Assembly (NCBI GenBank): GCA_947630485.1
Contig: CANRHU010000028.1
Location: 1-40,810, forward strand
DNA length: 40,810 nt
Direction of reading: 5' to 3'
Source of the DNA: an uncultured Lachnospiraceae bacterium
Lineage (GTDB): Bacteria > Bacillota > Clostridia > Lachnospirales > Lachnospiraceae
This document shows, in pieces, positions 3,633-18,685 of this stretch. The position numbers and the translations under genes were made by a program. Below the pieces are notes generated by a model, which had not been told where the DNA came from, did no database searches, and saw nothing but the letters and a program-made list of their open reading frames with translations. Each line of letters opens with the position of its first letter. Position 1 is the stretch's first letter.

Positions 3633-3680
3633 GTGCGAAATCAGAAAATCTCCGTCCGGTTTCGCCGCAAATTCCATCGA

Positions 3681-6506
3681 TTATGCCAGATATTTCTTCA
3701 CATACTGCCCCGTATACGAATTCTCGCACGCCGCGATCCGCTCCGGCGTCCCCTGGGCAATCACGGTGCCGCCCCGGTCGCCGCCCTCCGGCCCCATATC
3801 GATGATGTAGTCCGCAGTCTTGATCACATCCAGGTTGTGCTCGATCACAACCACCGTGTTGCCGCCCTCCGCCAGCTTCTGGAGAATCTCCACCAGTTTG
3901 TGAACGTCCGCAAAATGAAGCCCTGTCGTCGGCTCATCCAGGATATAAATGGTCCGTCCGGTTCCTCTGCGGCTCAGCTCCGTGGCCAGCTTGATTCGCT
4001 GGGCTTCGCCTCCTGACAGCTCCGTCGAGGGCTGCCCCAGGCGGATATAGGAGAGTCCCACATCATAGAGCGTCTGAATCTTCCTCTGGATCGTCGGCAC
4101 GTTCTCAAAGAATTTCAGCGCCTCCTCCACGGTCATATTCAGCACGTCGTAGATGCTCTTTCCTTTATACTTTACTTCCAGCGTCTCCCGGTTATAGCGC
4201 TTGCCGCCGCAGACCTCGCAGGGCACGTACACGTCCGGCAGGAAATGCATCTCAATTTTGATGATGCCGTCGCCGGAGCAGGCCTCGCACCGACCGCCCT
4301 TGACGTTGAAGCTGAATCTTCCCTTCTTATAGCCTCTCTCCTTCGCGTCCGTCGTAGAGGCAAACAGATCGCGGATCATGTCAAATACGCCCGTATAGGT
4401 GGCCGGATTGGAGCGGGGCGTCCGGCCGATGGGCGACTGGTCGATATTGATCACCTTGTCCAGCTTCTCCACGCCGTCAATCCCGGCGTGTTTTCCCGCG
4501 ATCGTCCTGGCCCGGTTCAGCTTCCGCGCCAGGGATTTATAGAGAATCTCATTCACCAGGGAACTCTTACCGGAGCCGGACACGCCGGTCACACAGGTCA
4601 TGACCCCCAGAGGGAAATTCACATCGATATTCTTTAGATTATTCTCCCGCGCACCCCGCACCGTCAGCCATCCCGTCGGCTTCTTCCGCTCCTTCGGTAC
4701 CGGAATCTGAAGACGCCCGCTCAGGTAAGCGCCGGTCACCGACTCTTCGCAGGCGATGATATCATCCACCGAACCGGCCGCCACCACATGGCCGCCGTGT
4801 TCGCCGGCTCCCGGTCCGATGTCCACGATATAATCCGCCGCCCGCATGGTCTCCTCGTCATGCTCCACCACGATCACCGTATTGCCCAGGTCGCGCAGAT
4901 GGAACAGGGTCCGAAGAAGCTTACTGTTGTCCCGCTGGTGCAGGCCGATGCTCGGTTCATCCAGAATATAGGCCACGCCGACCAGTCCGGAGCCGATCTG
5001 CGTCGCCAGACGAATCCGCTGGGCCTCGCCGCCCGACAGGGTTCCGGTCGCGCGGGAAAGCGCCAGATAATCCAATCCCACGTCAATCAGGAACGAAACC
5101 CTGGCCCGGATCTCCTTCAGAATCTGCGCTCCGATGGCCTGCTGCATACTGCTCAGCTTTAAGCCGTCCAAAAACTCCCGGAACTTTACCACCGACATAT
5201 CCGTCGCGTCGTAGATATTGAGTCCTCCCACCGTCACCGCCAGGGACGACTGTTTCAGCCGCTTGCCTTTGCAGAGGGAACAGGGCGTGATCCGCATAAA
5301 TGTCTCGTATTCCGCCTTGCTGTTCTCGGAAAATGTCTCCCGATACCGCCGCTCTACATTCTTCAGAAGCCCTTCAAAAGCCACGTCGTAGACGCCTACG
5401 CCCCTCTGGCCCCTATAGTGCACCTTCACCTCATGGCCGCCTGTCCCCCTAATCAGTACGTCCTGTATCTCCTTCGGGTACTGCTCGAAGGGCGTGTCCA
5501 GACTGAAATGGTATTCCTTCGCCAGCGCGTCCAGAATAGCCCGGGTAAAGCTTCCCGGGTCCGTGCAGGACTGCCAGCCCAGCACCACGATCGCTCCCTG
5601 CATAATGCTTAAGGACTTGTCCGGAATCATCAGATCCTCGTCAAACTCCATCTTATAACCCAGACCGAAACAGTCCGGGCAGGCGCCGAACGGATTATTG
5701 AAAGAGAAGCTGCGCGGCTCCACCTCCTCGATGCTGATGCCGCAGTCCGGGCAGGCGAAGCTCTGGCTGAAGGTCATGGTCTCGCCGTCCACGATCTCCA
5801 CCATCATCAGCCCATTGCCCAGATTCATGGACGTCTCAATCGAATCGGTCAGACGTTTCTCAATGCCCGCCCTCACTGAGAGGCGATCCACAATGATCTC
5901 GATATTATGCTTGATGTTCTTATCCAGCTTGATCTCCTCGGACAGCTCATACTGATTGCCGTCGATCCGCACGCGGGCGAAGCCGCTCTTGCGGGCCCGA
6001 TCCAGCACCTTCGCGTGCTCGCCCTTGCGCCCCCTCACCACCGGCGCCAGGAGCAGAAACCTGGTCCGCTCCGGCAGCGCCAGAATCTGATCCACCATCT
6101 GATCCACGCTCTGCTTTCGGATCTCCCGGCCGCACTTAGGGCAATGGGGGAGGCCGATCCTGGCATAGAGAAGACGCATATAATCGTAGATCTCCGTCAC
6201 TGTGCCTACGGTAGACCTGGGATTCCGGTTCGTGGATTTCTGGTCAATGGAAATGGCCGGGGACAGCCCGTCAATGCTCTCCACATCCGGCTTCTCCATC
6301 TGTCCAAGAAACTGACGCGCGTAGGAGGACAGAGACTCCATATAGCGTCGCTGGCCTTCCGCGTAGATCGTATCAAACGCCAGGGATGACTTGCCGGAAC
6401 CGCTCAGACCGGTCAGCACCACCAGCTCGTCACGCGGGATATCAATATCTATGTTCTTAAGGTTATGCTCGCTCGCACCCCGGATTTTAATAAACTGCCT
6501 TGCCAT
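3681..6506 (-). CDS. uvrA: Excinuclease ABC subunit A
   Basis: Damage-recognition ATPase of nucleotide excision repair, which loads UvrB at lesions. The 941-residue length is standard. The N-terminal half has Walker [10 protein letters not shown] near residue 32, the zinc-binding CPKC element and CPDC pairs, and an ABC signature [14 protein letters not shown] followed by the Walker [11 protein letters not shown]. The C-terminal half repeats the set: GVSGSGKSS, the CEAC/CEVC zinc module, [14 protein letters not shown] and [10 protein letters not shown]. All ATPase motifs are intact in both halves. ATG start with AAGGAGC upstream. The promoter overlaps a LexA box, so SOS induction is expected. 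No uvrB is in the window, although uvrB often neighbours uvrA in Firmicutes. Confidence 0.98.
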
Positions 6507-8395: not shown

Positions 8396-10551
8396 TTAGG
8401 ATTCCCGGGCAAGCCTCCCGGTCCAGCTGCTTCTCCCGCCGGCTCCACGACCCCGGGGCCGCTTACCCTGTCCGGATTCACCGGCAGACCGCTCTGACCG
8501 GTAGCTCCGCTCGTCCCAGCATTACCGGGAAGCGCCGCACCGGGATCTGAGGACCCCATCCCCGCAGCGTTGCCTCCCACCGAACCTGGCCCCATCACGC
8601 TTCCCTGTCCGGGCCCGGCCGGAGCCTGGGATTCCGAGTCAGGATTCGGCGTGACCGCCTCTGAAACCGGAGGCAAAAGACCGCCTGCCGCGCCAGCGTC
8701 CGGCGTTACAGACGCCCCGCCCGCGTCCGGCGTCACAGGCGCTCCCGCGTTCGGAGCCGCCGCGCCGCCACTTACAGTTCCATCCGCAGCCGGCGGCGTA
8801 ACCTGCGGCTGTGTAACCTGCGGCTGTACCGGCTGAACGGTCTGAGACTGCGCCGGCTCTATAACCTGCGGCTGCGTCGGCTCTGTAACCTGTGGCTGCG
8901 CCGGCTGTGTGGCCTGCGGCTGCGCCGAGGCAGCCGGCTTCGTGGCGGCCGGTTTGGAAGCGGAACCGGAGCCGGACGATCCTGATGAAGTTCCGGTTGT
9001 CTTATCCGTCTTCGAAGCGTCCGACGTCTTATCCGTACCGTCCGTTTCCTCTATCTTTGCGGCGCCGCTCGTCCCCTCCAGATGATAACACAAAATCGGA
9101 TCTCCCGCATTTATATTCTCATAAATCTTCTCCGCGGCAGACCTGGGCAGATTCACACAGCCGTGAGAGCCGTTCTTCAGATAGATCTTGCCGCCGAAGG
9201 AACTGCGCCAACTGGCGTCATGCAGACCAATCCCGTTGTTAAACGGCATCCAGTACTTCACATACGACTGATATTCATAAGAACCGTCCGCCCTCCGCGC
9301 GCCGCGCAGAACCGTATTCCGCTTCTTGTAGTTCAGGAAATAAGATCCTGCCGGCGTGTCATGTCCTTTTGCATGACTGCCCGACACGAAATCCGAGTCC
9401 ACCACCAGTTCTCCATCCTTATAAAAATACAGGTGCTGCGCCGTCAGATTGACTTCCACATAGGTATTTCCGTAATCCCTTTCCTCACGGCTTACCGCCT
9501 TCTGCGAATACACCGGCTCTCTGTTCTGACTCACCCCGGACTCCAGGACGGCGCACAGCTCCTTCGTTTCCTCCGCCTGGTCTATCTTCCATCCGTAGTT
9601 TCCTTTTTCAATCGTCACCGTCTCGCCATAGGTTGTATCAAGCGTGCGCGTTTTTCCGACTGTATCGTATCGGTCCGCCAGTTCCTTTACATAAGCGGCA
9701 GCCTTTTCCTCATCCAAGGCAACCCTGCCTTCTTCGTTCAGATAAATCCACTGAACCGTCGTATCCCGATCCAGGATCTCCTGCTCATCCCCAAACTGAT
9801 AGGTGACAACGACGCCCAGATAATGCTCCTGCTCCGCGATCTTTTCCTGTATTTCCGGATAATCCGACGTCACCGCAGGCTCCTTATAAACGCCAAGTTC
9901 CTCCAGAGACAACTCCGTTTTTTTATTATGTACGGCCTCCTTCACGGCCTCCCTTACAGCTTCCTTGTCCAGAACCGTGCCTTCAACTTCCGGGACGACA
10001 CGATAGCCCTGGCCCGGGACAAACTCTGTCAGATACGCGTCCTGCGGTTCCGTCATCTGGGAATCATCAAGAAAAACAAGCTGCTCAATGCGGGCAGACA
10101 GCTTCTCATCATCCGCCTCTATCATCGTATCGATCTGATATTCCGTGGCCTGCCTGCGGTGGCTCCACCAATCCATAGGATCCTGGGCCGCCAGGTACGA
10201 GGCCATCGTCCCGTCAAACAGATAATGAAACCCCGCTTCCTCCCCGGTAATCTGTTCCGTAACGCCGCCGCGCCCGGTGATGGTAAGTACGTAATCATCC
10301 ATCCGCGAGGCCACAATCGCCTCCGCCTCTTCCGCCGTCTTATAGGAAACATCCAGTCCATTAACCGAAGTGTTCGGGAAAAAAACAGTCTGATACCTCT
10401 TCCCGACGTTCACATAGTACAGATAACCGGAAACGCCAAGAATCACCGCTCCCGCGGCGACTCCGGCTGAAATAATGGCCGCCTTTTCCGAAAAAGTCGA
10501 ACGTTTTTTCCTCTTTCGGCTTCTCGGAGCCGGCCTCACTGACTCCTCCAT
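8383..10551 (-). CDS. Membrane L,D-transpeptidase with low-complexity tail
   Basis: Peptidoglycan cross-linking or protein-anchoring enzyme, 722 residues. A basic cytoplasmic start (SRKRKKRS) precedes one membrane segment (about 23-46). Next come two regions resembling the putative peptidoglycan-binding domain found upstream of YkuD (about 50-360). The YkuD catalytic domain is at about 362-490 with HDTPAG, GLHD (His444) and SHGCVNLP (His463, Cys465). The last 230 residues are unlike a fold: a Thr/Ser/Lys-rich stretch, then Pro-Gln repeats (QPAQPQVTEP type), then Gly/Pro/Ala-rich sequence. The whole enzyme would sit outside the membrane. The ATG at 10551 is preferred over an upstream GTG (10584) because GGAAGGGG lies before it. 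Tail repeats are visible in DNA as reiterated GCGGCTG units around 8800-8935. This tail may span the wall or vary in length between strains. Confidence 0.9.
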   Translation of the reverse strand: MEESVRPAPRSRKRKKRSTFSEKAAIISAGVAAGAVILGVSGYLYYVNVGKRYQTVFFPNTSVNGLDVSYKTAEEAEAIVASRMDDYVLTITGRGGVTEQITGEEAGFHYLFDGTMASYLAAQDPMDWWSHRRQATEYQIDTMIEADDEKLSARIEQLVFLDDSQMTEPQDAYLTEFVPGQGYRVVPEVEGTVLDKEAVREAVKEAVHNKKTELSLEELGVYKEPAVTSDYPEIQEKIAEQEHYLGVVVTYQFGDEQEILDRDTTVQWIYLNEEGRVALDEEKAAAYVKELADRYDTVGKTRTLDTTYGETVTIEKGNYGWKIDQAEETKELCAVLESGVSQNREPVYSQKAVSREERDYGNTYVEVNLTAQHLYFYKDGELVVDSDFVSGSHAKGHDTPAGSYFLNYKKRNTVLRGARRADGSYEYQSYVKYWMPFNNGIGLHDASWRSSFGGKIYLKNGSHGCVNLPRSAAEKIYENINAGDPILCYHLEGTSGAAKIEETDGTDKTSDASKTDKTTGTSSGSSGSGSASKPAATKPAASAQPQATQPAQPQVTEPTQPQVIEPAQSQTVQPVQPQVTQPQVTPPAADGTVSGGAAAPNAGAPVTPDAGGASVTPDAGAAGGLLPPVSEAVTPNPDSESQAPAGPGQGSVMGPGSVGGNAAGMGSSDPGAALPGNAGTSGATGQSGLPVNPDRVSGPGVVEPAGEAAGPGGLPGNPNAPG

Positions 10552-13376: not shown

Positions 13377-14081
13377 ATGCTGACCGTTACCCTCTGCGAC
13401 GACAACGCCCGGGAGCGTGAATATCTGAAAAGTCTTGTCCTCGACTGGGCGGCGGAATCCGAAGCGAAACTGACCGTGCGCGAATTCTCATCCGCGGAGG
13501 AATTTTTGTTCTCCTATTCCGACTGCCCGCCGGATATTCTGCTGCTCGATATCGAACTGTCCGGGATGAACGGCGTTGAACTGGCGAAAACGCTGCGGGC
13601 CCGCTCGGACTTTTCGCAGATCATTTTCATCACCGGCTACCCGGATTTTATCGCTGACGGGTATGACGTTTCGGCCCTGCATTATCTGTTAAAACCGGTA
13701 CGGCCGGAAAAGCTTTTCGAGGTTTTGACCCGCGCGGCCGAAAACGTTTCAAAGTCGCAGCGCGCCGTGATGTTAAAGACCACAGATGGCATCGAGCGGG
13801 TGCCTGTTGAGACGATCATTTACGCCGAGGCCTTTTCTCACCTTGTTTCCTTTGTCTGCGCCGGCAGAACCTGTGAAGTCCGCTGTACCATACCGGAAGC
13901 CAAAGCCATGTTAGGGGAAGGTTTCATCCAATGCCACCGCTCCTACATTGTCGCGCTGAAATATATCAAAACGGTCGGCAGCAGGGATATCCTTCTCGAC
14001 AACGGCGTCCGTCTTCCCATATCGCGGCAGCTTTATAAAGAAGTGAAAACGGCGTATCTGCGTTATTACGGCGTAATCTGA
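13377..14081 (+). CDS. LytTR-family response regulator
   Basis: Two-component transcription factor of the AgrA/LytR/VirR type, 234 residues. The receiver domain (1-120) has the acidic pair D8-D9, phosphoacceptor D58 in LLLDIEL and the KP turn in LLKPV. The C-terminal LytTR DNA-binding domain (about 130-232) shows IIYAEAFSHLV near its start and FIQCHRSYIVALKYI followed by LPISRQLYKEVK, the family hallmark. LytTR factors bind direct repeats of a 9-base motif spaced by about two helix turns; an array of that form lies downstream at 14834-14950. ATG with AAAGGAG upstream. The kinase gene follows after 88 bases. It probably controls the exporter genes and its own operon. Confidence 0.93.
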   Translation: MLTVTLCDDNAREREYLKSLVLDWAAESEAKLTVREFSSAEEFLFSYSDCPPDILLLDIELSGMNGVELAKTLRARSDFSQIIFITGYPDFIADGYDVSALHYLLKPVRPEKLFEVLTRAAENVSKSQRAVMLKTTDGIERVPVETIIYAEAFSHLVSFVCAGRTCEVRCTIPEAKAMLGEGFIQCHRSYIVALKYIKTVGSRDILLDNGVRLPISRQLYKEVKTAYLRYYGVI

Positions 14082-14169: not shown

Positions 14170-14841
14170 ATGAAACTTTTTGACCTGTTTTTCGGAAAAA
14201 TGCTGGATCGCAGGATCGCGGAATATCAGTCCGATCTGATCCAGAAACACGTTTCGGAGGTCGAAAACGTCTATAAGACCATGCGCGGCTGGCGGCATGA
14301 TTATCACAACCACATTCAGGCCATGCTGGCATTGACCGACAAGCCAGATGAAATCAGGCATTATCTTCTCTGCTTAAGCGACGACCTTATGACTGTCGAT
14401 ACCGTGATCAAAACCGGCAATGTGACTCTCGACGCGATCCTGAACTCGAAGCTTTCCCTGATCAGGAATTCCGGGATCGAAGTCAGCGCCAAGGCGGCGG
14501 TGCCGCAAAACCTTCCCATCTCGGACATCGACCTGTGCGTCATCATCGGAAATCTTCTGGACAACGCACTGGAAGCGTGCCAGAGCCAGCCGGACGAAGA
14601 GGAGCGTTCGATCCGGATCTTTATCGGGGTATTGAAAAATCAGCTCTACATCTACTGCCGGAATACTCTGGACGGCATTCCGAAAAAGCTGGGCGGAACC
14701 TATCTGAGTTCCAAGCGAAGAAGCGGACGTGGACTCGGCCTGATGCGGATCGATTCCATCGCCGCGAGGAACAACGGCTCCGTAAACCGCCAGCACGACG
14801 ACGGAATCTTCGCCACCGAAGTCATCATTCCTCTTTCGTGA
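14170..14841 (+). CDS. GHKL histidine kinase lacking a sensor domain
   Basis: Partner kinase of the LytTR regulator, 223 residues. After about 40 residues (MKLFDLFFGKML, amphipathic, then a helical linker) comes the H-box RHDYHNHI with phosphoacceptor His43. An N-box, GNLLDNALEAC, and a G-box, GRGLGL, follow in the ATPase domain, which ends in TEVIIPLS. This is the catalytic half of an AgrC/NatK-type kinase (PF14501-like GHKL ATPase). Such kinases normally have five to seven membrane helices; here there are none, and the length is about half of normal. The signal must come from a partner protein, from the membrane through the amphipathic start, or from inside the cell. GGGGGAGG precedes the ATG. 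The stop codon lies inside the first unit of the repeat array. Confidence 0.9.
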   Translation: MKLFDLFFGKMLDRRIAEYQSDLIQKHVSEVENVYKTMRGWRHDYHNHIQAMLALTDKPDEIRHYLLCLSDDLMTVDTVIKTGNVTLDAILNSKLSLIRNSGIEVSAKAAVPQNLPISDIDLCVIIGNLLDNALEACQSQPDEEERSIRIFIGVLKNQLYIYCRNTLDGIPKKLGGTYLSSKRRSGRGLGLMRIDSIAARNNGSVNRQHDDGIFATEVIIPLS

Positions 14842-14950
14842 CGCAGTCCGTGCCGTTTCGTGACGCAGTCTGCGCCGTTTCGTGATGCATGTGATGCAGT
14901 CCACTCCGTTTTGCGATGCAGTCCGCGCCGTTTTTGATACCGTTCGCGCC
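14834..14950 (+). promoter_or_regulatory. 22-base tandem repeat array, candidate LytTR operator
   Basis: Five related units: 14834-14855, 14856-14877, 14878-14908 (carrying a 9-base internal duplication), 14909-14930 and a divergent 14931-14950. Each holds a 9-base box: GCAGTCCGT at 14843, GCAGTCTGC at 14865, GCAGTCCAC at 14896, GCAGTCCGC at 14918, ACCGTTCGC at 14939. These resemble the published LytTR half-site [TA][AC][CA]GTTN[AG][TG] (7 of 9 for the first box, 8 of 9 for the last). Box spacings are 22, 31, 22 and 21 bases, close to two or three helix turns each, so all boxes face the same side of the DNA. The last box ends 7 bases before the -35 of the exporter promoter. Confidence 0.6.
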
Positions 14951-14954
14951 AAAA

Positions 14955-14983
14955 TTCCCCAGGATCTCTGACCATGCTATAAT
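14955..14983 (+). promoter_or_regulatory. Exporter operon promoter with weak -35
   Basis: -10 TATAAT at 14978-14983; at 17 bases upstream only TTCCCC (14955-14960), a poor -35. A strong -10 with a poor -35 directly downstream of repeated boxes is the usual form of an activator-dependent promoter. Expected start near 14990. Confidence 0.6.
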
Positions 14984-15006
14984 AAAAGCTGTCAGAGATC
15001 TTTTTT
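14963..15006 (+). terminator. Terminator enclosing the exporter promoter -10
   Basis: Perfect 10-base arms GATCTCTGAC (14963-14972) and complement (14991-15000), 18-base loop, then six T (15001-15006). Transcripts from the regulator/kinase genes would contain both arms and stop here. RNA started at about 14990 would lack the left arm and pass. The ribosome binding site CAGGAGG follows directly (15007-15013). Confidence 0.75.
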
Positions 15007-15018
15007 CAGGAGGACATC

Positions 15019-16851
15019 ATGAAACCGAAAGAGAAGAACACGCATCCGCGCATAGTTTCAAATATACTCTATGCGCTCAAAAATATCTGGCGGTGGGACA
15101 AGCTTTACTATTTCTTTTTCCTTCCGCAGATACCGCTTCTGGTGCTTCTGCGCCTGGCGGAGCAGTATTTTCCGAAAATGCTCATCGACAGCGTGAGCCT
15201 TTCGAAATCTGCCGGACAGATCACAACGCTTGTCGTGGTCTGCTACTCCGCCCTCTGGGCGCTGTTTCAGCTCCACCGCTTTTTCAGGAACAGAGTCGAG
15301 ATGCGGCAGTACTGCTTCTCCTCAAAATATCAGGAAGAGATCGCCGCGAAATTCATGCGCACCGATTTTTCCAATACCGACAATCCCGCGATCAACATCA
15401 AGTACCAGAACGCGATGAACGACGCCTGTTCCGGAAGCTGCGCCGGAGAATTTATCTTCGACTCGATCCTGACTCTTCTGACGAACCTTCTGGGCATTTT
15501 CACCTACGGCGCCCTGATCATAGGCATCTCGCCGCTGATCCTTCTCCTTTTGTTTCTGTCCGCATATATCACCTATCTTTTCGGGAAATTACAGAGGGAT
15601 TATGTTGAGAAAAATAAGGACAAATGGGCGGCGACAGACCGAAAAATAGGGTATCTGGAAAGCTTTTCGGAAAAACTGGACCATGCCAAGGATATCCGCG
15701 TTTACGGGATGAGCGCATGGCTCTCGGGACTTCTTAACGGCTGTCAGCGGGAGCGGTTTTCGTGGGAGAAACGGATTACGGCCAGAGGATTCTTAAGCGG
15801 AATTTCTAGCGCGTTCCTGACATTTCTGCAAAACGGCCTCGCCTACGCCGTGCTCATTTACCAGGTACTGGAAGGCAGTCTCGGCGCCGGTGATTTCGTA
15901 TTCTACTTCGGGCTGATCACCGGCTTCTCGGCCTGGCTTAACGGCATCGGCGTGCTTTTTAACGACATGATCGACAAGGCCGTGCGGATCGGCTATTACC
16001 GGGAATACTTCGCGGTGCCGGATCATTTTAACCACGGCGCGGGCTGTGCGCTGCCGGAAAAAGGCGACCTGCCCCTTGATATCTCCCTCAAAAACGTGTC
16101 CTACAGCTACCCCTCCGAAGACGGTGAGGTCCTCGCGCTCTCGGATATCAGCCTGGACATCCGGAAAGGGGAAAAGCTGGCCATCGTCGGCGAAAACGGC
16201 GCGGGAAAGACCACCCTTGTAAAGCTGATCTGCGGGCTCTATTATCCCTCCCGCGGCGAGATCACCGTCAACGGCCGCGCGATTCCCGAGTACAACATAG
16301 ACGAATATTACTCCATGTTCTCAGCCGTTTTCCAGGACATCTACCTGCTGCCCATCACCATCGCGGAGTTTATCTCCTCAGGCGGCGGAAAGCCCGACCG
16401 CGGCCGGATCATGGCCGCCATCCGTGCCGCAGGGCTTGAGGCCAGGATCGAATCGCTCCCCAGGGGGATAGATACACACCTGATGAAGGGAATCTTTGAC
16501 GACGGTATCGACCTTTCCGGCGGCGAGAAGCAGAAACTGATGCTCGCCCGCGCGCTCTACAAGGACGCGCCGATGATCGTCCTGGACGAACCGACCGCGG
16601 CCCTGGACCCCATTGCGGAAAACGACCTCTATATGAAATACAACGCCCTGACAAAGAACAAGACGTCGGTCTTCATCTCACACCGGCTGGCCTCCACCCG
16701 CTTCTGCGACCGGATCATTTATCTGGAAAACGGAAGGATCGCCGAGTGCGGGACCCACGATGAACTGATGAAGCTGGGCGGAAAATACGCCTATATGTTT
16801 GACCTGCAGAGTCACTACTATAAGGAGGATCTGAGCGATGAAGCAGTTTAA
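15019..16851 (+). CDS. ABC exporter half-transporter A
   Basis: A 610-residue fused membrane/ATPase protein of the ABC-B type (MsbA/multidrug/peptide exporters). Six membrane helices occupy about residues 35-330. The ATPase domain (about 350-605) has Walker A GENGAGKTT, signature LSGGEKQKLMLARAL, Walker B MIVLDEPTAALDP and the switch region SHRLAS. There is no N-terminal C39 peptidase, so it is not a leader-cleaving bacteriocin exporter on its own. ATG with CAGGAGG 5 bases upstream. Overlaps the next half-transporter by 14 bases, so the two probably form a heterodimer. Controlled, by position, by the array and promoter at 14834-14983. Substrate unknown: peptide, lipid or drug. Confidence 0.92.
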   Translation: MKPKEKNTHPRIVSNILYALKNIWRWDKLYYFFFLPQIPLLVLLRLAEQYFPKMLIDSVSLSKSAGQITTLVVVCYSALWALFQLHRFFRNRVEMRQYCFSSKYQEEIAAKFMRTDFSNTDNPAINIKYQNAMNDACSGSCAGEFIFDSILTLLTNLLGIFTYGALIIGISPLILLLLFLSAYITYLFGKLQRDYVEKNKDKWAATDRKIGYLESFSEKLDHAKDIRVYGMSAWLSGLLNGCQRERFSWEKRITARGFLSGISSAFLTFLQNGLAYAVLIYQVLEGSLGAGDFVFYFGLITGFSAWLNGIGVLFNDMIDKAVRIGYYREYFAVPDHFNHGAGCALPEKGDLPLDISLKNVSYSYPSEDGEVLALSDISLDIRKGEKLAIVGENGAGKTTLVKLICGLYYPSRGEITVNGRAIPEYNIDEYYSMFSAVFQDIYLLPITIAEFISSGGGKPDRGRIMAAIRAAGLEARIESLPRGIDTHLMKGIFDDGIDLSGGEKQKLMLARALYKDAPMIVLDEPTAALDPIAENDLYMKYNALTKNKTSVFISHRLASTRFCDRIIYLENGRIAECGTHDELMKLGGKYAYMFDLQSHYYKEDLSDEAV

Positions 16852-18685
16852 GGAACGAATCGAGGCCCTTCGCCAAAATCCCAACGTCAGGGCGCTTAAA
16901 ATGTGGCACAGCCTGTGCCCGCAGTTTTTCCCCTTAAGGGCCGCAGAAGCGCTCTTTGGCAACCTGTCGCCATATTTCAGCCTTTGGTTTTCGGCGGAGA
17001 TCATCAATGAGCTTTTGGGCGGAAGGGACAGAAACCGTCTGATCGCCCTGATGCTTATAACGGTGACCGGCAATCTGGCGATCTCTGTCGCCTCGCACAT
17101 ACTAAACCGCGCCGCCGGTCACGCGAATTACCTTCTGAACCAGCGGGAATCGGCGGCGTTTATGCGCAAAACCCTGACTCTGGACTATCAGGATCTGGAA
17201 TCCCCGGATGTGCGTCAGCTCAGGCGGAAAATTACCGAGAACGGGAAGATCAACGGCTACGGCAAGGACCTTCTGATCAACATGGTCTGCTGGGCAATGG
17301 ATGAAACCGTGAATTTTGTGCTCTCCCTGCTTTTAAGCATTGAGATGCTTGTAAAAATATTCACGGCGGGCTTCAGCGTCCGAGTTTTGGGATTTGTGGT
17401 CCTTTTTCTGGCGGCTTTCGTCCTGCACACACGCCTCGTGGCCGTCTTTTCCGAAAAGACGAGCAGCCTTGCCGACGACATCGGCAAAACCATGCTGGAT
17501 GAAAACCGCGTCGAAGGCGGCATCGACGTCTACAACATGGGCAAGGACATCCGCCTCTACCGGCAGGACGCCATCATATTGAAAATCAAAGAAAAGCTTC
17601 TCGACGCCCACGCCGAAGTAAACAGAAAATACTATACCTTCCAGTACATTACGGACGCGCCGATTTTCGCGGTCGAGTACTTGATCGAGGGCCTGGTATA
17701 CGCGCTCGTCGCCATGTACGCCTTAACCGGCGTTCTGGGGATCGGAAGCATCGTGAAATATTCCCGGTATATCAGCAATCTGTTCAACAGCGTGGCCATG
17801 TTTTTCAACATCAGACTGGACATTGCCAATAACACCCGCTTTATGGAAGAATATCTTGCGTATTTCGATACCCCCAACCGGATGTATATGGGAAAGATCC
17901 CGGTGGAGAAGCAGTTTTTGTGCGACGGGGGTGAAAATGAGTATGAGATGGAATTCAGAAACGTCAGCTTCCGGTACCCGGGCAGCGACGAATACGCGCT
18001 CAGAAACGTCAGCATCAAATTCAAAGTGGGAAGCCGGCTGGCGGTCGTGGGGCAGAACGGAAGCGGAAAAACCACATTTATCAAATTGATGTGCCGCCTC
18101 TACGACCCGACCGAGGGAGAGATTCTCCTAAACGGCGTGAACATTAAGAAATACGACTACGCCGAATACCTGCAGCTGTTTTCGGTGGTGTTCCAGGACT
18201 TTAAGCTGTTCTCCTTCCCCCTGGGACAGAACATCGCCGCCTCGGAAGCCGTGGACGAAGCTCTGGCTGAAAAATCGCTGGCAGCGGCGGGATTTTCCGA
18301 ACGGCTCAAGAAAATGCCGGCAGGCCTCGGAACCTGCCTTTATAAGGATTTCGACGAAAACGGCGTCGAGATCTCGGGCGGCGAAGCGCAGAAGATCGCC
18401 CTCGCCAGGGCCCTTTACAAGGGAAGCCCGTTCATGATCCTGGACGAGCCCACGGCCGCCCTCGACCCGATCGCTGAATTTGAGATCTATCAGAGCTTTG
18501 ACAACATCGTGAAAGAAAAGACCGCGGTCTATATCAGCCACAGACTGTCAAGCTGCCGCTTCTGCGACAGAATCGCGGTGTTCGACATGGGAATGATCGT
18601 GCAGACAGGCTCCCACGACGCCCTCTGCCGCGCTGACGGCAAATACCGCGAACTCTGGCATTCGCAGGAACAGTACTATGTGTAA
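16838..18685 (+). CDS. ABC exporter half-transporter B
   Basis: A 615-residue partner of the preceding exporter, same domain order: membrane part (about 30-330), then ATPase with Walker A GQNGSGKTT, signature ISGGEAQKIALARAL, Walker B FMILDEPTAALDP and SHRLSS. The catalytic Glu after Walker B is present in both partners, so neither ATP site looks degenerate, unlike many heterodimeric exporters. The ATG is 14 bases inside the upstream gene, with AAGGAGG before it, indicating coupled translation. It ends 16 bases before the convergent MATE gene; no clear terminator was found in that gap. Confidence 0.92.
   Translation: MKQFKERIEALRQNPNVRALKMWHSLCPQFFPLRAAEALFGNLSPYFSLWFSAEIINELLGGRDRNRLIALMLITVTGNLAISVASHILNRAAGHANYLLNQRESAAFMRKTLTLDYQDLESPDVRQLRRKITENGKINGYGKDLLINMVCWAMDETVNFVLSLLLSIEMLVKIFTAGFSVRVLGFVVLFLAAFVLHTRLVAVFSEKTSSLADDIGKTMLDENRVEGGIDVYNMGKDIRLYRQDAIILKIKEKLLDAHAEVNRKYYTFQYITDAPIFAVEYLIEGLVYALVAMYALTGVLGIGSIVKYSRYISNLFNSVAMFFNIRLDIANNTRFMEEYLAYFDTPNRMYMGKIPVEKQFLCDGGENEYEMEFRNVSFRYPGSDEYALRNVSIKFKVGSRLAVVGQNGSGKTTFIKLMCRLYDPTEGEILLNGVNIKKYDYAEYLQLFSVVFQDFKLFSFPLGQNIAASEAVDEALAEKSLAAAGFSERLKKMPAGLGTCLYKDFDENGVEISGGEAQKIALARALYKGSPFMILDEPTAALDPIAEFEIYQSFDNIVKEKTAVYISHRLSSCRFCDRIAVFDMGMIVQTGSHDALCRADGKYRELWHSQEQYYV

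Follow-up and report, generated by a model that had tools for sequence, protein, structure and literature searches.

The window analyzed here, a 40,810-bp stretch of DNA from an uncultured Lachnospiraceae bacterium, carries on its forward strand a regulator/kinase pair and two half-ABC exporter genes, between which lies a short array of direct repeats. The first gene (13377–14081) encodes a response regulator with receiver and LytTR DNA-binding domains (Pfam PF00072 and PF04397), the presumed binder of the sites described below, and is followed by the gene of a GHKL/SPOB-type histidine kinase of 223 amino acids (14170–14841; PF14501 and PF14689). The kinase shows no membrane-like stretch, its highest hydropathy over 19 residues being 1.14, so that its signal would be cytosolic or relayed by a partner. 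The two exporter genes overlap (15019–16851, the presumed first target gene, and 16838–18685; PF00005 in both) and their nearest NCBIfam models are of the MsbA type, both below cut-offs.

The array consists of five related units starting at 14835, 14857, 14888, 14910 and 14931, with the spacing of 22, 31, 22 and 21 bp that had originally been predicted. Its Tandem Repeats Finder score is 91, as against a top score of 45 among dinucleotide shuffles of 14786–15018, of which 39 out of 1000 contained any repeat row. Two further details of the original prediction are borne out by the sequence: the 31-bp step has its source in a 9-bp tandem duplication at 14882–14899 on the forward strand (GTGATGCAT/GTGATGCAG, as read from the sequence), which enlarges the irregular unit from within, and the array begins at the stop codon of the kinase (TGA, 14839–14841). 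The helical phase is also retained as claimed, since boxes 4, 3, 2 and 1 lie 21, 43, 74 and 96 bp upstream of box 5, which at 10.5 bp per turn corresponds to deviations of 0, 1.0, 0.5 and 1.5 bp from whole turns, respectively. We give this phase little weight, because tandem copying of a 21–22-bp unit yields it for free; the 9-bp duplication is the sole independent event that kept the phase, the other spacing following from unit copying. Within its own genome (94.8% complete) the 150-bp array region matches only itself. The unit core GYGATGCAGTCYR occurs there exactly in three places, two of which are inside the array, and with at most one mismatch in 52 places (27 + 25; control, 11), among which no cluster was recognized outside the array. 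Elsewhere in the window, tandem repeats at 8687–8927 belong to a large minus-strand protein gene, in which they encode a Pro/Gln-rich tail.

Comparable loci were collected with a kinase-based scan of a genome collection that gave at least 593 candidate stretches, at least 540 of them confirmed, the best 80 of which were kept. These best 80 loci come from Lachnospiraceae, other Clostridia, Paenibacillus and others; all of them have a relative of the regulator upstream and 67 have a relative of the exporter starting within 450 nt downstream, the module of regulator, kinase and exporter being found among them in Clostridia and some Paenibacillus. A limited literature search, which is no proof of absence from print, returned no description of this module. 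Removal of the kin of the window (L042 and L043), of one locus whose sequence ends at the kinase (L083) and of near-duplicates (L059, L062, L065, L068 and L095) left 72 non-redundant loci, for which the 253 nt from the kinase stop codon were submitted to a motif search by expectation-maximization that used a second-order background model and limited the number of sites. The best de novo motif in these 72 junctions, from which the window and its kin are excluded, is TACCATTCGTGC, with approximately 108 sites and a maximum score of 20.9. It resembles the LytTR half-site consensus, a 9-mer of the form [TA][AC][CA]GTTN[AG][TG], and together with the A that frequently follows it contains TTCGTGCA.

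With a score of at least 5, two boxes are present in 46 of the 72 regions, three in 3, one in 14 and none in 9, counts that are in part given by construction since the motif was learned from the same regions; the spacing of the boxes, their link to the exporter and their distance from the −10 element were not used in the learning. At the same threshold, the forward strand carries 115 sites and the reverse strand 21 (shuffles, 0.14 per region), and neighboring boxes are 21 bp apart in 41 cases and 20 bp apart in 8, distances of 9, 12 and 174 bp occurring once each and that of 22 bp never. When all box pairs 12–60 bp apart are considered in the 72 relatives, 42 have a distance of 21 bp, 8 of 20 bp and 1 of 42 bp, with none at 22 or 31 bp. 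A pair at 20 or 21 bp with scores of at least 8 is found in 47 of the 62 exporter-adjacent regions, in 4 of 1551 stretches taken from elsewhere in these loci and in 2 of the 10 regions that have no exporter by an automatic test; the latter group is not clean, its two pair-bearing members being L081, a short contig without exporter match, and L091, in which the exporter match starts only late in the protein. The distal box can be weak in other loci as well, with scores of 1.6 in L055, 2.0 in L069 and −2.8 in L070. The clearest multi-box operator of the set is that of L048, in which three top-scoring boxes follow each other at 21/21 bp (3670–3723), and this locus offers a better test case for multiple boxes than the window. 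Among the 49 pair-bearing relatives, 4 end too soon downstream for the −10 element to be located; in 29 of the remaining 45, scored with an approximate −10 matrix, the best −10 lies 40–42 bp downstream of where the second box starts, the distance being exactly 42 bp in 19.

The five boxes of the window, all on the forward strand, differ widely when scored with this family motif. Box 5 (14938–14949, TACCGTTCGCGC) reaches 17.9 and is the top match of all 81,598 positions of the window on both strands, whereas box 4 (14917–14928, TGCAGTCCGCGC), 21 bp upstream of it, scores 6.3 and box 1 (14842–14853, CGCAGTCCGTGC) 4.8; box 2 (14864–14875, CGCAGTCTGCGC), 22 bp past box 1, and box 3 (14895–14906, TGCAGTCCACTC) have negative scores of −2.5 and −3.3, respectively. 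Since box 4 ranks among the best 0.04% of window positions, box 1 among the best 0.09% and boxes 2 and 3 among the best 1%, the resemblance of the copies to the family motif is not what random sequence would give. The original prediction had put the agreement with the LytTR half-site at 7–8 of 9 positions in the copies that it scored, which holds for boxes 1 (7) and 5 (8) and fails for boxes 2–4, with 6 each; because 15%, 3.6% and 0.5% of the forward-strand positions of the window reach at least 6, 7 and 8 matches, agreement with the consensus speaks for box 5 and only weakly for box 1. A second register of the repeat, GCCGTTTCGTGA (14852 and 14874), was rejected as an alternative set of boxes on the basis of its motif score of −2.3. 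Boxes 1–4 all have C at motif position 7, which is T in 98% of family boxes, and the four upstream copies differ from one another at each of motif positions 8–11, for which conservation in the family is 81–97%. Indeed, 5 of the 12 columns of the box vary among these units, in comparison with 3 of the 10 columns of the spacer, a pattern that would not be expected under selection on five sites, even if four recent copies form a small sample.

Boxes 4 and 5 lie directly upstream of the putative exporter promoter, of which the −10 element TATAAT (14978–14983, forward strand) starts 40 bp past the start of box 5, as compared with the family mode of 42 bp. The −35 position, read from the sequence 17 bp further upstream (14955–14960), is occupied by the non-consensus TTCCCC, and our search for sigma-70-type sites found none in 14780–15060; a good −10 without a good −35 agrees with the weak −35 promoter that the original prediction placed after the array. 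In the same segment an intrinsic terminator is predicted for the transcript of regulator and kinase (14961–15006, forward strand), formed by a hairpin at 14961–15002 and a run of six T at 15001–15006. Its outer stem has 12 pairs with perfect 10-nt arms, and its loop encloses the −10 element. The structure has a folding energy of −20.2 kcal/mol (z −6.09; 0 of 200 shuffles equally stable), was picked up by a separate script as well and is common to the sister genomes discussed below, even if it is absent from the output of a simple terminator scan, which permits only loops of 3–8 nt.

The array DNA was matched in 3 of 26 genomes of the genus, namely its own and those of the two sisters, G022 (L003, of which L042 appears to be a duplicate entry) and G015 (L004), in which the match has 80% identity and covers query positions 58–126 of 127. 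The kinase of the sisters is 96% identical to that of the window and their junctions are identical to each other, so that the comparison of copy number involves one distinct sister sequence and one genome of the species of the window. The sisters have three units at 21/21 bp, as counted by eye, versus five in the window, and retain in place the last two units, with box scores of 15.1 for the last and −0.2 for the preceding one, as well as the −10 element. Of the combination that would refute the original prediction, copy numbers that vary and are out of phase in related strains together with unchanged exporter expression, the sister shows the first part, a varied copy number, while its units keep the phase. 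Reading of the 26 kinase loci of the genus (L005–L031 less L025) found a pair of boxes 21 bp apart with scores of at least 5 in four of them (L005, L017, L029 and L031), that of L029 being TGCAGTTCATCC and GACGATTCGTCC. This L029 pair suggests that the GCAGTCC boxes of the window descend from a distal box of the GCAGTTC type. The variant GACGATTCGTCC is shared by the paralogous kinase loci L007, L008, L029 and L031 of the same genus, with a second box 21 bp upstream of it in L029 and L031, and is followed by what appears by eye to be a GC-rich inverted repeat, for example CGTCCCCGG..CCGGGGACG in L029.

Taken at the level of sequence, these data probably reflect a standard two-box LytTR operator for the exporter, formed by boxes 4 and 5, with copies of a weak box upstream that are specific to the lineage and mostly decayed. 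The 21-bp spacing of this pair and the position of the −10 element match the geometry of the family, its proximal box is the best motif match of the window and the sisters keep precisely the last two units together with the −10 element. The region would accordingly be the operator-promoter of the exporter, bound by the response regulator that is encoded approximately 0.8 kb upstream; protein domains and family motif agree with the earlier view that an operator region of LytTR type adjoins the gene of a LytTR regulator. The working pair would consist of the weak box 4 (14917) and the strong box 5 (14938), two helical turns apart. In the mechanism that we propose, binding of the phosphorylated regulator would begin at box 5, a second subunit would then be recruited to box 4, and the bound protein would presumably activate the TATAAT promoter by replacing the missing −35 contact. 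Boxes 1–3 would have arisen as tandem copies of the distal-box unit via replication slippage in the lineage of the window, would have lost most of the motif by decay and would now contribute little. The terminator around the −10 element would end transcripts of the regulator and kinase genes; a transcript from the exporter promoter would start around 14990, at the 3′ arm, and hence could not form the hairpin. Because the terminator would block only readthrough from the regulator and kinase genes, expression of the exporter would depend mainly on the regulator. Some observations fit this two-box operator less well. The score of box 4 is only 6.3 and that of the sister distal box is −0.2, which makes the use of the distal box in this clade uncertain; boxes 1–4 are not random sequence and the three units of the sister stay in phase; and the nine family regions without any box, like the training and counting of the motif on the same regions, also have to be weighed.

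The original prediction went further and took all five boxes as sites, in which case the phosphorylated regulator would fill every box along one face of the DNA and produce steep switching. We regard such a true five-site operator as unlikely. It would agree with the phasing of all five units to within 1.5 bp of whole turns, with the LytTR operators of three repeats known from RcoM1 and CoxC (PMC11347149) and with the L048 relative, the −10 element of which lies 63 bp past the second and 42 bp past the third of its boxes, an arrangement indicating that additional upstream boxes do occur. However, every repeat of such an operator should be a recognizable half-site at a working spacing, while boxes 2 and 3 have negative scores and box 1 remains under 5, the family has no box pairs at 22 or 31 bp but operators of two boxes 20–21 bp apart, and within the array only boxes 4 and 5 have the family spacing and only box 5 is strong. 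The variation of the conserved motif positions 8–11 among the upstream copies and the smaller number of units in the sister argue in the same direction.

Another reading extends from the terminator. In the relatives, a hairpin followed by a T-run, at −7 kcal/mol or below, is present in 28 of 49 operators, and in all 28 the stem takes at least five bases of the LytTR boxes (e.g., L045, L056, L087, L094, L101 and L115), 17 of the stems pairing the distal box in the 5′ arm with bases of the proximal box in the 3′ arm. When the downstream 48 nt were shuffled, a box-overlapping hairpin was obtained in 162 of 980 cases versus the real 28 of 49. Swapping of the downstream segments between loci, which keeps the T-runs intact, gave 665 of 2352 at −7 kcal/mol; the corresponding values at −12 kcal/mol were 26 of 49 real versus 336 of 2352 swapped, and at −15 kcal/mol 18 of 49 versus 142 of 2352. 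Given that the real fractions exceed the swapped ones, the complementarity between boxes and downstream sequence is locus-specific, and it may be kept by selection. On this basis one could imagine that, in the exporter family, LytTR operator and regulator-gene terminator form one composite element, the boxes of many members having two roles, one in the DNA as sites of the regulator and the other in the RNA as part of the terminator stem, while in the window, where the terminator encloses the −10 element, the upstream phased copies would be low-affinity sites from which phosphorylated regulator spreads as a longer complex over the combined terminator and promoter. We consider this whole proposition rather doubtful; nothing on LytTR operators overlapping terminators was recognized in a limited literature search. 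In any case, the way in which operator and predicted terminator overlap in the relatives could be tested as a means of shielding a target gene from readthrough.

The upstream units might instead serve as low-affinity decoys, a reservoir raising the local concentration of the regulator without fixed occupancy, which would accord with the weak but nonrandom resemblance that every unit bears to the family motif; the difference in copy number between the lineage of the window and the sister speaks against this role, a precedent for which was not recognized in a limited literature search, and we attach little probability to it. Least probable of all is an array unrelated to LytTR: as a slipped neutral minisatellite it would be a repeat of the kind that slippage makes, occurring once in the genome, yet it ends in a strong family box at the conserved place, preceded at exactly the family spacing by another unit, and nothing points to an RNA or coding repeat because the folding of 14834–15018 is no better than that of shuffles (z −0.76) and a period of 22 bp is not divisible by three.

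Searches for similar operators elsewhere were also undertaken. A survey for triple boxes, which requires an exact TTCGYGC three times and hence misses the array of the window too, had matches in 2 of 397 family genomes, its backwards control matching in one genome (G338, twice). The match in G406 (L122) was rejected as a LytTR operator since the repeat is coding, its reading frame apparently corresponding to the C-terminus of ZapA. The match in G152 (L123), a 20-bp repeat, was not taken as one either, no LytTR gene being recognized within 1.8 kb; the nearby gene presumably encodes RNase Y, and the tandem repeat itself (TTCGTGCGTTAGGGAATCCC; G152:C8:267–333) adjoins masked sequence. In the genome of the window, the exact TTCGYGC pair occurs in two places, and a fuller pattern of the pair with up to three mismatches finds the window pair and one place on contig C23 (control, one match). 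The same genome has a direct repeat of TTCGTGCA with 21-bp spacing (L127 1501–1528; C5:73785–73812) before a short gene, presumably for a RelB/DinJ-type antitoxin. More generally, having the motif, spacing and promoter position for the module of regulator, kinase and exporter makes its targets predictable from sequence, and the present array recommends caution, as phased repeats adjoining a regulator gene are not necessarily all sites.

Two-box LytTR operators are described as two 9-bp direct repeats 10–13 bp apart (PMC11347149), and boxes 4 and 5 correspond to this description, with 9-bp repeats at 14918–14926 and 14939–14947 that leave a gap of 12 bp at a spacing of 21 bp. The operators reported for PlnC/PlnD of Lactobacillus plantarum and HdrR of Streptococcus mutans likewise consist of two direct repeats of 9 bp that are separated by 12 bp and lie directly upstream of the −35 region (PMC2714321; PMC6193735), and AgrA as well binds a pair of direct repeats in front of its promoters (PMC4227749). 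The PlnA promoter provides a precedent for our two-box operator, since it too combines a strong, consensus right repeat with a degenerate left one; losing the left repeat lowered binding by 84–90%, according to the same account, so that degenerate left repeats can still matter (PMC2714321). The family box differs from that of the pln operators, being TACCATTCGTGC instead of TACGTTAAT. The LytTR Regulatory Systems (LRS) resemble the window in having a LytTR regulator, repeats mostly 12 bp apart and, in some cases, links to ABC transporters, but they are presented as the combination of a regulator with an inhibitory membrane protein under autoregulation (PMC6193735), whereas the neighbor of the receiver-LytTR regulator in the window is a GHKL kinase without membrane-like stretch, and no box with a score above 11 is present directly upstream of the regulator gene. 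RR_1586 of C. difficile was set aside as a comparison because it belongs to the OmpR family (PMC6222199). RcoM1 and CoxC are similar to the window in having more than two direct repeats at a spacing of about two turns; the RcoM1 core TTCNNGCA matches the family box ACCATTCGTGCA, and TTCGTGCA fits the same core (PMC11347149). RcoM1 is described there as an activator and CoxC as a membrane-anchored, CO-sensing repressor with an operator in which all three repeats are needed (PMC11347149). In these two systems the core recurs in three repeats (PMC11347149), whereas among the boxes of the window TTCNNGC is present in box 5 only. With respect to the two-repeat systems, the window is distinguished by its three extra upstream units, by the predicted terminator that lies over the promoter and by a kinase that appears to be soluble.
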